Below, piece after piece: positions 58,843 through 64,000 of a stretch of 64,000 bases of DNA (position 1 is its first letter; each line of letters opens with the position of its first letter). The DNA is from Pseudomonas sp. B6002 (GTDB lineage Bacteria; Pseudomonadota; Gammaproteobacteria; Pseudomonadales; Pseudomonadaceae): NCBI RefSeq assembly GCF_013385985.1, contig NZ_JACAOY010000012.1:350064-414063 (forward strand), read 5' to 3'. The notes beneath the pieces are model-generated. The model had not been told where the DNA came from. It worked only from the letters and a program-made list of their open reading frames with translations, and searched no databases. The position numbers and the translations under genes were made by a program.

Positions 58843-58918
<76 letters not shown>

Positions 58919-58925
58919 TTTAAAA

Positions 58926-58957
58926 ACAAAGGCTTGCAGCGATGCAGGCCTTTTGTT
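58926..58957 (+). terminator. Hairpin after tRNA-Thr
   Basis: AAAGGCTTGCA, loop GCGA, TGCAGGCCTTTTGTTT. The arms pair with one bulge and a U-rich tail follows. Confidence 0.75.
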
Positions 58958-59043
58958 TGCCTGTAATACGTAAAACAGAAGTAACAAGGCGAGCATTTCA
59001 GCTTTTTGCAAAGCATGACGGCTTACTTCAAAAGGAAGTGTTT

Positions 59044-59868
59044 ATGGTCTGGAAGACTTGGGACTGGAAATTCATCGCTACCACTGTGATCGCCATTGCA
59101 GCGTTAATCGTTCCCCAGATAGACCTGTCCTCCCGCTCACTCACCGTCCGTCTTTTGGCCTCGTCGCCTTTGCAGCCTGCCTTAAACATTCAAAATCTTC
59201 AGATCTCGCTGAACGGTCAGAATGTCGAATCGCCATACATCTCAACCCTTGAGCTGGTTAACACCGGATCGAAGCCAGTTACGAGTACAGATTTTGACAG
59301 TACCTTGCAAATTCAAATGGCAAATAGCGCCAAATTGATTAGCGCCGAGATCACGAGTACAACTCCAAAAAACATTCCCGCCCAGGTCGCAACGATCGGG
59401 GATAAAGCGGCCATATCTCCGTATCTATCAAACCCCAAAGATGCCGTAACCATCGCCGTAATCACCTCCGGGCCACGTCCAGAGTTCGAGGTAAGGGCTC
59501 GTATCGTGGGTATAAATGAAGTGGGGTTTGAAGACACCACAGTCAGAAACGGCAGCAGCTATTTGTCATCTCTAATCGGCGTGGTGACGTCGTACGGACT
59601 CCTATTCCTATATTTCCTCTTCGGGCCAATTGCATTCCGCGATAAGCAATTCGCGATCCCACGCGGGCTCGCTTTCTGTATCGCAGCAGCATGTGCTGCT
59701 GGAAGTGTGAAATTGATCAGGATCAGCTTACCTAACGATCTCTTTACGGCCATGCCGTACCCAGAAGCCTGGCCATCCACGGTCGCGATTGTATTTACCG
59801 TGATCGCGGGATTAATGGCGAGCAGGTATTTACGTCGGCAGAAAGAAGCGGGGCGCTTGACGGGGTGA
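59044..59868 (+). CDS. Unknown membrane protein
   Basis: 274 residues from ATG 59044 with AAGGAAG upstream. One N-terminal helix (KFIATTVIAIAALIVPQI), then an extracytoplasmic beta-rich region of about 150 residues (LNIQNLQISLNGQNVESPYISTLELVNTGSKPVTSTDFD). Three C-terminal helices (SYGLLFLYFLFGPIAF, GLAFCIAAACAAG, TVAIVFTVIAGLMASRYL) and a short basic tail follow. I do not recognise the family. It adjoins tRNA-Thr and is isolated, and codon use is less GC-biased than the core, which fits an accessory gene. Confidence 0.65.
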   Translation: MVWKTWDWKFIATTVIAIAALIVPQIDLSSRSLTVRLLASSPLQPALNIQNLQISLNGQNVESPYISTLELVNTGSKPVTSTDFDSTLQIQMANSAKLISAEITSTTPKNIPAQVATIGDKAAISPYLSNPKDAVTIAVITSGPRPEFEVRARIVGINEVGFEDTTVRNGSSYLSSLIGVVTSYGLLFLYFLFGPIAFRDKQFAIPRGLAFCIAAACAAGSVKLIRISLPNDLFTAMPYPEAWPSTVAIVFTVIAGLMASRYLRRQKEAGRLTG

Positions 59869-60707
59869 GCCCTGTAAAAGTACTGCGATGGCGTAGCGCG
59901 AAAGTTAAAAGCCATTTGTGTGAGCACTTCATAAGGAATGCCTTATGCAAGATAAAAAAACTAGGGTTACCCCCTAAAAGCCTGTCAGTTTTGTCAGATT
60001 TATATTCCTATACCCTATGCCCTTGTATTTCACGGAGCCCCTATCCACGGGGGCCTCGGCGCGTTTTGACATAACAAGGAATACCGTAAGTCATTGATTG
60101 ATATCTCTCGAGCACCCTCCTTGCAATCAGTAAGCCCAAGCACTCAACCAAGCCTACCGTTGATATATCTGGGCTTTCGGTGGTGTGTTTACCAACAATC
60201 GCCAAGGTATTACCGTCGCCAAAGGTATGATTACTAGGATTACAAGAGGGTCACATCTTCAAAACCCGCGGAGGTGCACCTGCAAACCCACGAGGATTTA
60301 AACGTCAGTGGTGTGCTTCGTGCATTTGGAGTGAAGGGGAGTAACAAGTCATACCTACATCGCCAACAAACGGGGCAACTGATGGCAACCCATCGAAGCT
60401 CATCTTCCGCTTAAAAAACTAGCGAAACAATTATCCGCCCCCATGAAATTTTATACTTATCAACACAGTAGAGGATATGCACTCGCCTACTGCATTTTAT
60501 AAATCACTCCAACTAAAGGCAAAATCTGGAATAACTATTTAGCTCTTAGCAATTCAATTTAAACATGAAAACATCCTACCATCCGCCTATAAACTTACCT
60601 ACCCCATCCGCAGCCCCTCAGACTTTAACGCTGCAGAACAATCAACACTTTTAGATATAAAACCCTCATAAATCCCTATACGTGCCTACCTCACAGACGA
60701 CAAGAAA
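59869..60707. other. Gene-free AT-rich segment
   Basis: About 840 bases with stop codons in all frames. It holds a short palindrome CATAAGG-AATG-CCTTATG at 59930-59947 and becomes very AT-rich after 60400. No integrase remnant, duplicated tRNA end or tRNA-like sequence is convincing. It may be degraded accessory DNA or hold an RNA. Confidence 0.5.
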
Positions 60708-61262
60708 CTAACTTGAAATAGTATTAATTCTCAATAAACCCGACCTAAATTCTGCCATATTTAGTATATCTGTCGGAAGCAGCTTCAAATAAAATGAATC
60801 GCGGAGATATGTGGAGCACTCCAACAAAACCTGATCATTATCAAAAAACAATACAATCGGCCTAGAGCTATAACGTTCCGAAGACAATAGATATATGCAA
60901 GCCTCAACAAAGCTGAATTGAATTTCGGAAACCTCCTCTCTAGAGCCAATTCCCATACGCCCAAAAAAATCAAAATACTCAATGTCTAACTTTTGAAAAA
61001 AACTAAAGCTTAGTTGACGAGACCCATAAAATACGTCAAGACGAGGAGCCACTCGCAAATCCAAAATACACCCTGGGTCATAGGCGCTAGAAAACTGCAG
61101 GAACGAATTTTTCTTAACCACTTCGCTTTCCTTCATGAAAACCAAAGTATTTCCTACAAACCCTTTACTATGAGTATTCATATTCATAGGCTCATAACTG
61201 GAGTAGCATACCCCCGACTTGATGCCGTACAAGTTAGAAGAGGAATCAAAACTCTTTCTCAT
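60708..61262 (-). CDS. Unrecognised protein coupled to the AvcD-like gene
   Basis: 184 residues. The stop of the upstream AvcD-like gene is one base before this start, and the ribosome site GGAGGG lies inside its last codons, so the two are translationally coupled. The protein has no signal peptide or clear membrane helix. It has alternating strands such as FVGNTLVFMKESEVV and CILDLRVAPRLDVFYGSRQLSFSFFQKLDIEYFDFF, and a hydrophobic C-terminal segment PIVLFFDNDQVLLECS. No catalytic motif or family is recognised. It is AT-rich, like its partner. A helper, sensor or regulator of the deaminase is the natural guess. Confidence 0.7.
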   Translation of the reverse strand: MRKSFDSSSNLYGIKSGVCYSSYEPMNMNTHSKGFVGNTLVFMKESEVVKKNSFLQFSSAYDPGCILDLRVAPRLDVFYGSRQLSFSFFQKLDIEYFDFFGRMGIGSREEVSEIQFSFVEACIYLLSSERYSSRPIVLFFDNDQVLLECSTYLRDSFYLKLLPTDILNMAEFRSGLLRINTISS

Positions 61263-61263
61263 T

Positions 61264-62883
61264 TCATCCCTCCATCATATTTTCAACAAGCTTTTTCTCG
61301 AGAACTTGATAATTCTCACTCAGCAAACCAGGAAACCATTCCGGCTGCCCAAATGTCAATTTCCCTAGATCATTTTTTAGTTTTCTATCTTTCATAAAAG
61401 CTTGGCGATATAGTCGCGGTGCAACACCCGTAAACGCTCTAAACAAAACTTTCGGTGTAGCCTGATGATCAGACGCTTTCACTATTAGTTCGTTATGCGT
61501 AACTATCGCATCACTAGGCGATACCCAGAGCGACTTAGACTTCTCAATAGCATCGCCATGCAAATCAAACGCCAAACTCTTAGGATAAGGTTCAATATAC
61601 TGCACTTCATCAACACCTGCTGAAACTATATGCCGAGCACAATAATGACAGGGGAAAGTTGTAACAAACAGCCTGCTACCTACTGGAGATAGGCTTTGTC
61701 GTGCAGCAGCTAGCAAGGCGTCCATTTCAGCATGCACAGCCCGGCTAAACTCCAAAAGTCGACCAATTCCTGTCTTTTTTAAAATACCCTTCAGAGTTGT
61801 AGGATCCGCATTTTGCAACTCCGGCACAGCACCAATAAGCTCTCCGATAATCTCATCTTGATGCTTATTACTGCTGCAGTATTCATTAGAGTAGGCGCAA
61901 CGGTGATCATTTCGTGGATCTACTTGGAAACCGCCACCATAGACTCCCCCTCCAGCAGCGGGAACTTCATTTTTCCCTGTCGCAAGCAAGTTCCCAGCCT
62001 TGTCCATCAACGCTGCCCCTACTTGTCTCGACAAACAGGCACTGGTCATTTTAGCTCCATACGCATGAAACATTCCAGTTTCGCTGGCAGACGGGCGCAC
62101 AACCTTCCTAAAAGTAAGTATATCTATGAGCCGTCCAAGTTGATCATTAACGTCCCACGCGGGGTTCTCATTTCTATGTAATTCATCTAAAAACCTATCT
62201 TGAGTGTTATCGATAAAATAATCTGCAAGATGGAATGTATCGCTTACTTTCTGCCCGCTATTAGATCCTGAATCCTGATCGCGCTCGATGAATTTATCGA
62301 TCTCCTCACCTGATGAAGAGTTACACTTCCCATCTCTAAGCCGAGAACGTCTTTTTTGGTTCTCGCAAACTACCCCAACGAGACAAAATGCTTCCTGATA
62401 AACACTACGCAACAGAGATACTTCTGCTGGATTTTTTAGCGAATCTAAAATATAAACTCTAAATGGTTTCTCAGTACCACTAGAACTATCGCTTGAAGGT
62501 GCCTTTCTAATACCAACAATTTCTGAAATCAGACTAACAGCAACTCCAGCCGCATCTTTTGACCTAATAGCGTCCCCTGCATCTTGGAGGGATTTAGCCC
62601 GAGACAACTGCGATGCATTATCGATAGTGAAATTTTTAGATTCCGCCCAACTGGCAATTGCGTTACTGGCTTTCAAAACCACAACTTCCGAACTTGGAAT
62701 AGCGTTACTCAGACACTCTTTCAGCGCCGTCGCGATCCAGCTCGTCCCGGAACCGGCAGGCCCCACTACAGCGAAGATCAACTCTCTAGAAACTAAAGAT
62801 CCCAGTAAAGTGCTAGATGTCTGATTGCTGTCGTTTGATGCAACAGGTACGGTGCTCTGAGCAACTGGCATTTTCAATTCCAT
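61264..62883 (-). CDS. avcD: AvcD/dCTP-deaminase-type anti-phage protein
   Basis: 539 residues. An N-terminal P-loop-like domain has GPAGSGTSW (41-49), with Thr where Walker A has Lys. ILDSLKNPAEV (145-155) follows, as in this family. The C-terminal cytidine/deoxycytidylate deaminase domain has the zinc site: HAE at 384-386 (catalytic Glu386) and PCHYC at 411-415. This architecture is that of AvcD and of the dCTP deaminase defence proteins, which destroy dCTP/dCMP pools on phage infection. In Vibrio, AvcD is held inactive by the small RNA AvcI. An alternative start is ATG 62871. The gene is AT-rich and followed by a coupled partner gene. Confidence 0.88.
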   Translation of the reverse strand: MELKMPVAQSTVPVASNDSNQTSSTLLGSLVSRELIFAVVGPAGSGTSWIATALKECLSNAIPSSEVVVLKASNAIASWAESKNFTIDNASQLSRAKSLQDAGDAIRSKDAAGVAVSLISEIVGIRKAPSSDSSSGTEKPFRVYILDSLKNPAEVSLLRSVYQEAFCLVGVVCENQKRRSRLRDGKCNSSSGEEIDKFIERDQDSGSNSGQKVSDTFHLADYFIDNTQDRFLDELHRNENPAWDVNDQLGRLIDILTFRKVVRPSASETGMFHAYGAKMTSACLSRQVGAALMDKAGNLLATGKNEVPAAGGGVYGGGFQVDPRNDHRCAYSNEYCSSNKHQDEIIGELIGAVPELQNADPTTLKGILKKTGIGRLLEFSRAVHAEMDALLAAARQSLSPVGSRLFVTTFPCHYCARHIVSAGVDEVQYIEPYPKSLAFDLHGDAIEKSKSLWVSPSDAIVTHNELIVKASDHQATPKVLFRAFTGVAPRLYRQAFMKDRKLKNDLGKLTFGQPEWFPGLLSENYQVLEKKLVENMMEG

Positions 62884-63603
62884 TTGAGATAATTAGTTAA
62901 AATTAGCTTGCCACAATTCCGGCCTAACACGCTTTCTTTCAAAATAACGATATATCTACCCACCCATCAGCCTTCCGTATGTCGACGACTTATAACTCCA
63001 AAAAAACGTCGTCTTTCTTCGATAACCCAGGCGGAATCATAGATCATCGTTAGATTTTTTGACACGTTTGGCATCTGGAGCATCTGACGGAAGCGTCACC
63101 TGCAATGATACGTTGCGACTTATCTGAAAACCTAGCCCGCCTATCGCCACGACCCTCCTTGACAAGCCTGCACATCGATATTTTTTTCATAAAGCTCTGA
63201 TTTTGCTGATTTTCTTAAAAATGAAGTGCTCAATTTGCGAGATTTCGGCTCTACCTATCAAACCTTTCCCCTCTGTCAACAGCCGGAAGCTACAGACGTA
63301 GTTTTCCCGGATCCTTACCTAATTAGACAGATAGAAGCCTCTCCCTCAGCTAGGTCGTTTCGCTAATTCGTCTAACCAGCGCATTTCACTGCCTGAGGAC
63401 ACGACATGATTCAGGCACTACAGCACCACCGATCTCGTTTGGCGTTTTTCTATGCCTTTGGTTTTGTGTAACGGAGGGTTTGCGTAGAAGGCCTCAAGGT
63501 CTGCGAGGTACCTGTGTCTCCGTTTTCTCGACCCGAGCACAGATGAACTCCCACTCGCCTGAATTAGTACATTTAGATCTCGTCAGATATGGGGGTTTGA
63601 TCT
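62884..63603. other. Non-coding region upstream of avcD
   Basis: 720 bases with no credible gene on either strand. On the avcD strand an inverted repeat lies at 62984-63013 (GACGAC arms with AT-rich middle). The region is where an AvcI-type antitoxin RNA and the avcD promoter would be expected. I see no clear terminator-type hairpin. Confidence 0.45.
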
Positions 63604-63830
63604 ATGAGCACTGCACCTGCATCTGACGCCCCCACCAATCTTTATTCCGCGCCAACGGGGGGGTCTGCCTGAAACCTTACACCACGTTTCCGATTTGCTT
63701 CATTTCGCCAAGTGGCTCGCAAAATAGCGATCGCCACATCTGGGCTTCGCATTATCTGCAGGAGATGAGCAAGGCTGTGATTGATGATGCGGTGAAGGTA
63801 TTGGAGTCGCCCGACATCACCATGCAATAG
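63604..63830 (+). pseudogene. Frameshifted DUF3077-type gene
   Basis: Three frames joined in order read MSTAPASDAPTNLYSAPTGG, then LPETLHHVSDLLHFAKWLA, then SDRHIWASHYLQEMSKAVID and a stop at 63828. The pieces match the DUF3077 pattern (helix ending in AK-L, then WA-HYL-EM-KA--DD). Frame changes are needed near the seven-G run at 63656-63662 and near the TCGCAAAATAG at 63716-63726. The breaks could be real decay or sequencing errors in the G run. Confidence 0.65.
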
Positions 63831-63852
63831 GCTGTTGATGCAGTGACTGAGC

Positions 63853-63884
63853 CGCCACCATCGCGGGCAAGCCCGGCTCCCACA
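63853..63884. repeat. Single-arm REP element
   Basis: CCACCATCGCGGGCAAGCCC followed by GGCTCCCACA: only the right arm of the repeat is present, directly before a terminator. Confidence 0.75.
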
Positions 63885-63922
63885 AAAAAGCGCCCCAGCC
63901 TGTGAAGGCTGGGGCGCTTTTT
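63884..63922. terminator. Bidirectional terminator
   Basis: AAAAAAGCGCCCCAGCC, loop TGTGAA, GGCTGGGGCGCTTTTT. Strong stem with A- and T-runs on either side. It serves the leftward gene at the window end. Confidence 0.92.
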
Positions 63923-63926
63923 GCTG

Positions 63927-64000
63927 TCAGGCAAACCGCCCGCCTTGCCTGCGTAGGTAAACCATCTGCGCAGCCACCCCCACCACCAGCGCCAACGCAA
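63927..64000 (-). CDS. C-terminus of an unidentified leftward membrane protein
   Basis: Only the last 23 codons are in the window, ending ALALVVGVAAQMVYLRRQGGRFA and TGA. This is a membrane helix followed by a basic tail, as at the end of many inner-membrane proteins. A terminator follows the stop by 4 bases. Other frames in this stretch run through the terminator and REP sequence and are not real. Confidence 0.6.
   Translation of the reverse strand, partial: ALALVVGVAAQMVYLRRQGGRFA

Follow-up and report, generated by a model that had tools for sequence, protein, structure and literature searches.

The stretch of DNA analysed here (the window) comprises 64,000 nucleotides of Pseudomonas sp. 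B6002 (contig NZ_JACAOY010000012.1, positions 350,064 to 414,063). Near its end, on the minus strand, lie two coupled genes. The upstream gene (61264..62883) encodes a 539-residue anti-phage dCTP deaminase of the AvcD type. The downstream gene (60708..61262) encodes a protein of 184 residues, here called the partner, which looks like a divergent relative of the DUF488 family. AvcD is known from AvcID, type III toxin-antitoxin systems that consist of the AvcD deaminase and an RNA inhibitor, AvcI; in Hsueh et al. 2023 (PMC10511110) AvcD is described as depleting dCTP and dCMP, and the AvcID of enterotoxigenic Escherichia coli (ETEC) as protecting against several phages. The window shares with AvcID the AvcD-family protein and its zinc motifs; it differs in the protein gene to which AvcD is coupled.

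An earlier note, made from the sequence alone, had described the 539-residue protein as an AvcD-type defence deaminase with intact zinc motifs, and this identification holds. The protein passes the curated cutoff of the NCBIfam model NF041025 (424.4 bits versus 400) and scores 493 bits with the PADLOC dCTPase model; judged by these scores it is a defence-type AvcD, and the window copy can be presumed to act against phages. The zinc/catalytic motif HAE (residues 384-386; 61726..61734, minus strand) and the zinc motif PCHYC, of the form PCxxC (residues 411-415; 61639..61653, minus strand), are both intact. HAE is kept in all 49 partner-bearing and all 59 partnerless AvcD rows that we aligned, and PCHYC in 42/49 of the partner-bearing AvcDs, the remaining seven having PCHNC or PCHSC. 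The non-canonical P-loop pointed out in the same note, GPAGSGTS, is present (residues 41-48; 62740..62763, minus strand), but does not set this protein apart: GxxxxGK[ST] occurs in 0/108 AvcDs, so the lack of the Walker lysine is a rule of the family, and the ETEC protein reads GFAGCGMK at this position.

The two genes almost touch. The 3' end of AvcD reads ATG ATG GAG GGA TGA and is followed by a single A and then by the ATG of the partner at 61262, i.e. the partner starts one base past the AvcD stop. The ribosome-binding site of the partner, GGAGG (61269..61273, minus strand), lies within the final codons of AvcD, in the stop region where the earlier note had placed it, and 6 nt from the partner ATG.

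The partner of the window had no match in Pfam, NCBIfam, PADLOC or PHROGs. Its recurrence beside AvcD was followed in several samples. Among 399 genomes of the same genus it occurred in two places, both with AvcD: the window and genome G046, where the partner is 36-38% identical to that of the window and overlaps an AvcD that is 68% identical to the window AvcD. The G046 locus (L004 1480-2901 and 3073-3921) has an AvcD frame that lacks the N-terminal part, and adjoins a transposase-like open reading frame (ORF) that appears IS30-like by eye. In two Alphaproteobacterial plasmids coupled "hypothetical proteins" lie behind AvcD. Multiubiquitin-domain and ThiF-family genes adjoin the AvcD-partner pair in two Alphaproteobacterial plasmids (L033 1-1399, L035 6570-8863).

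A larger set of AvcD loci was collected from 84,980 species genomes by a pattern scan with two peptide patterns, which were taken from four partner-bearing AvcDs. The best 80 of 81 loci were used; the scan favours the partner-bearing branch, and the counts are not prevalences. The closest AvcD among these 80 is 85% identical to that of the window and comes from Stutzerimonas stutzeri. A partner profile was built from 39 seed ORFs, namely the window's, that of the same-genus locus L002 and 37 picked by eye behind AvcD. It matches behind AvcD in 48/80 of these loci and in 1/3 loci from viral contigs. Of the 32/80 loci without a partner, L081 ends inside AvcD and the AvcD frame of L107 is short; the remaining 30 reach at most 343.0 bits with an AvcD profile made from the four partner-bearing AvcDs. 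With the same profile the lowest partner-bearing loci are L114, a fragment, with 343.6 bits and L084, which has a long AvcD frame, with 361.7 bits. In 42/49 cases the partner starts between -14 and +2 nt from the AvcD stop. Five starts fall outside this range (-50, +9, +11, +30 and +34, with start codons chosen by us). In the other two, L082 and L114, AvcD is fragmented, and the gap between its last piece and the partner is about +50 and -17, respectively.

Since the partner profile had been seeded with ORFs from behind AvcD, we ran a leave-out test; profiles from which all rows of at least 40% identity had been removed recovered 49/49 partners, the weakest with an E value of 2.6e-10 for 10,000 proteins. 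The profile was also searched against the whole genomes of 398 Pseudomonadota and of 385 members of the class of G618. This gave strong matches (E 6e-8 or better) in 11 places, comprising the window, four loci whose partner sequence was already in the alignment (L121, L156, L157, L158) and six new ones; all 11 adjoin AvcD and none lies away from it. At L122 the AvcD beside the partner was seen solely as a C-terminal piece. Four further distinct places matched weakly (E 4e-5 to 9e-4); Pfam identifies all four as DUF488 proteins, and the surrounding 2.7-3.2 kb showed no AvcD. The homologues of the partner are thus found beside AvcD, which was the co-occurrence check that the earlier note had proposed, and the pairing is more than chance.

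Next to recurrence, the phylogeny of AvcD is informative. In a tree of 108 full-length AvcDs, from which ten fragmentary ones had been excluded, the 49 proteins with a partner form one side of a single branch, with a support of 97 in the Shimodaira-Hasegawa-like approximate likelihood ratio test (SH-aLRT). The partner was found beside 0/59 of the other AvcDs, two of which (L092 and L102) have less than 300 nt of downstream sequence. Shuffling of the labels gave a mean of 35.7 changes and 0/500 shuffles as low as observed, a kind of clustering that is inflated by near-copies, as the tree program warns. After removal of 12 long or distant rows the branch had an SH-aLRT support of 98. Partner-bearing AvcDs were seen in Pseudomonadota, Myxococcota, Bdellovibrionota and Acidobacteriota. 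Their branch adjoins other AvcDs including that of ETEC, which stands on the partnerless side; we take this entry to be the protective protein of the AvcID study. The grouping with defence members fits the earlier note; the tree contains AvcDs only, and the NF041025 and PADLOC scores are the basis for distinguishing the protein from ordinary dCMP deaminases.

The two proteins also diverge in parallel. Across 45 loci the distance matrices of AvcD and partner are correlated (Mantel test, Pearson 0.859, Spearman 0.754; 0/2000 permutations as high). The mean p-distance is 0.79 for the partner versus 0.52 for AvcD, so that the partner diverges more. The ratio of nonsynonymous to synonymous substitution rates (dN/dS) of the partner was calculated for eight close pairs, five of which gave an unsaturated estimate. 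Four of these lie at 0.04-0.15, three of them sharing the same three loci with dS near 3; the fifth, from a near-identical pair, is 0.31. For the pair of the window and its 85% relative the estimate is saturated. The partner is under purifying selection.

What kind of protein is the partner? We compared its profile by hhalign with an alignment of DUF488 (PF04343) proteins. This alignment has ten rows from 24 PF04343 places, 12 of which fit the pattern TIGY...DxR, with two near-copies dropped; it represents the canonical kind only, so that a shared DxR is partly built in. Residues 39-109 of the partner (60936..61148, minus strand) align over 71 columns with a probability of 95.2% and an E value of 2.5e-8 for one comparison, and D-x-R (D68, R70; 61053..61061, minus strand) falls in register. 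The control comparison against AvcD gave 0.07%. Within the 49 partners R70 is conserved in 49/49, D68 in 47/49 and Y96 in 48/49. The CHR motif in the C-terminal half, which is invariant in the ten-row DUF488 alignment, is absent from 49/49 partners. A further relative, L161, scores 12.5 bits with DUF488 versus a cutoff of 22.2. AlphaFold models of the partners from the window and L071 (predicted local distance difference test, pLDDT, 82 and 84) have five strands that alternate with helices. Taken together, the partner looks like a divergent DUF488-related protein, as far as profiles can tell, yet not like a member of DUF488.

In five relatives (L034, L044, L048, L049 and L074) the partner makes up the first ~170-195 residues of a protein of 605-663 residues with a TIR domain, encoded behind AvcD; the starts of these fusion proteins were chosen by us, and the record of L034 annotates a later one. 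All five match the PADLOC models TIR-PNTD1-PNTD2 (TIR-APAZ). Directly after each fusion follows an ORF of ~500-530 residues. Those of L034, L044 and L049, which were scanned, match class I short prokaryotic Argonautes (pAgos), and the ORFs of L048 and L074 are homologues of these; our own pAgo profile matches all five loci, which also seeded it. In L034 AvcD is split across two ORFs. Another locus, L050, is cut off by the contig end. The five loci are operons of AvcD, a partner-TIR-APAZ fusion and a pAgo. They resemble SPARTA, the system of a short pAgo and a TIR-APAZ protein, in that TIR-APAZ, here with the partner domain in front of it, is followed by a class I pAgo. The best-scoring PADLOC TIR-APAZ model, PDLC02403, has its TIR start at position 2 and therefore does not include the partner domain. 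The locus in the window differs from SPARTA in having neither TIR nor pAgo, and its 184-residue partner ORF gave no TIR match. As a separate observation, L065 has a pAgo-like ORF (442-2022) upstream of an AvcD-partner pair without a TIR-APAZ fusion.

The explanation that we prefer, with a probability of roughly 0.53, is that the partner is an AvcD-binding regulatory subunit in a two-gene anti-phage cassette, where it most likely holds AvcD off until infection. We favour a regulatory subunit because the partner was found here only with AvcD, because its translation is coupled, and because it diverges in step with AvcD but faster; the absence of the CHR motif and the fact that the partner can be joined to another sensor-effector point the same way. 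Physical binding, the inhibitory sign of the control and its trigger are what we infer. In such a cassette AvcD would deaminate dCTP and dCMP and so starve phage DNA synthesis. The partner would be a dedicated regulatory subunit on a DUF488-related alpha/beta scaffold without CHR, and translational coupling would ensure its synthesis along with AvcD. By binding AvcD it would set the timing, and most likely restrain AvcD until infection as the RNA AvcI does in AvcID; perhaps it stands in place of AvcI. The SPARTA-type fusions would have retained the AvcD-docking part and gained a second sensor/effector. Of the two possible signs, inhibition ahead of infection seems likelier, as AvcI and Clover offer analogies for it. 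Clover (PMC12265719) combines the dNTPase CloA with CloB, a nucleotidyltransferase that makes p3diT; in this system a partner protein restrains the dNTPase. The likeness, a nucleotide-depleting effector with a regulatory protein, would hold for the proposed AvcD-partner pair; unlike the CloB described there, the AvcD partner matched no nucleotidyltransferase model.

Several results weigh against this explanation. The DUF488 link amounts to 71 columns with an identity of 11%. In Pfam searches DUF488 comes up in 1/49 members, with an E value of 0.016, and 0/49 reach the Pfam threshold. The best Pfam match among the 49 is instead AAA_16, sub-threshold, in 2/49 (E 5.8e-5); in L041 this match spans the later part of the AAA_16 profile and has no counterpart in the close relative L040. 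Fold searches against solved and viral structures gave no convincing homologue of the partner. A second PADLOC TIR-APAZ model, PDLC02400 (639 positions), has ~175-185 positions before TIR, and the fusion proteins do not match them. The conserved D-x-R and tyrosine could mean an enzyme, and joint inheritance would suit a chaperone or a second enzyme, too. Finally, an AvcI RNA may exist beside the window AvcD. Conservation of the window with its 85% relative starts 15 nt before AvcD; this comparison is no evidence on AvcI, because partnerless AvcD pairs of similar identity mostly show little upstream conservation too. No Rfam match was found in 59900-64000. The earlier note had suggested a three-part variant of the defence; of this the two-gene unit stands and the third part, the RNA, is unproven. 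In E. coli plasmids annotated 61-residue ORFs lie 34 and 12 nt upstream of AvcD (L036 2694-2879, L153 291-476), approximately at the position expected for AvcI.

The fusions also allow a bolder, tentative reading, in which the partner domain serves as an adaptor that docks to AvcD and couples different infection sensors to one nucleotide-depleting effector; the adaptor alone, as in the window, would be a protein switch replacing the AvcI RNA. If this were true, a guide-directed Argonaute in the fusion operons would fire two effectors at once, with loss of NAD+ through TIR and loss of dC nucleotides through AvcD. That the partner is instead a second enzyme of the pathway, acting for example on dUTP/dUMP or another nucleotide with D-x-R and Y as catalytic or ligand-binding residues, seems unlikely to us. 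An activator or phage sensor that turns AvcD on, rather than an inhibitor, is similarly improbable. SPARTA is triggered by invaders, and the fusions join the partner to just this module; the divergence of the partner above that of AvcD is also as expected for a sensor under phage pressure, but fast divergence fits an antitoxin too. We consider it rather improbable that AvcD needs the partner as an assembly factor or structural subunit for its folding or stability, with an AvcI-like RNA as the regulator. Coupling and co-inheritance are typical of obligate subunits and the upstream data leave room for AvcI; however, the other branches, with 59 AvcDs, apparently manage without the partner. An ordinary AvcD with an incidental downstream gene would agree with the lack of a named family for the window partner, but is very hard to reconcile with the branch-wide restriction, the coupling and the parallel divergence.

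AvcD has been described as an RNA-held toxin; here a whole branch of AvcDs has a dedicated protein, and in some of its members this protein is joined to an Argonaute system. This bears on how nucleotide-depleting effectors stay silent and on whether Argonaute recognition can trigger a deaminase. With the partner, defence-finding tools would also gain a second gene to model in a known system.

The surroundings of the pair agree with the earlier description of AT-rich DNA near a tRNA gene. The G+C content is 42-44% at 60-63 kb versus 58-67% for most of the window, with a second low stretch at 27-31 kb. A tRNA-Thr(tgt) gene (58843..58918, plus strand), which belongs to the context and not to the system, lies ~1.8 kb from the end of the partner. 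No integrase was recognised by eye among the ORFs near the pair. Beside the tRNA is an ORF of 308 residues (58942-59868, plus strand), membrane-like by eye, which matches phrog_29378 (E 1.1e-10), a phage family of unknown function.

Other ORFs were seen behind AvcD as well. In 21/118 loci, all without the DUF488-related partner, AvcD is followed by an ORF of ~50-70 residues with a WPxWK motif (L010, L011, L014, L015, L018-L020, L023, L085, L088, L089, L093, L094, L098, L099, L102, L105, L110, L117, L119, L120). Other AvcD branches may therefore own a distinct small companion protein. A third type of ORF, with 77-88 residues and an RIL...RxF-like tail, lies behind AvcD in L017, L021, L022, L024 and L025, which are from the same genus.
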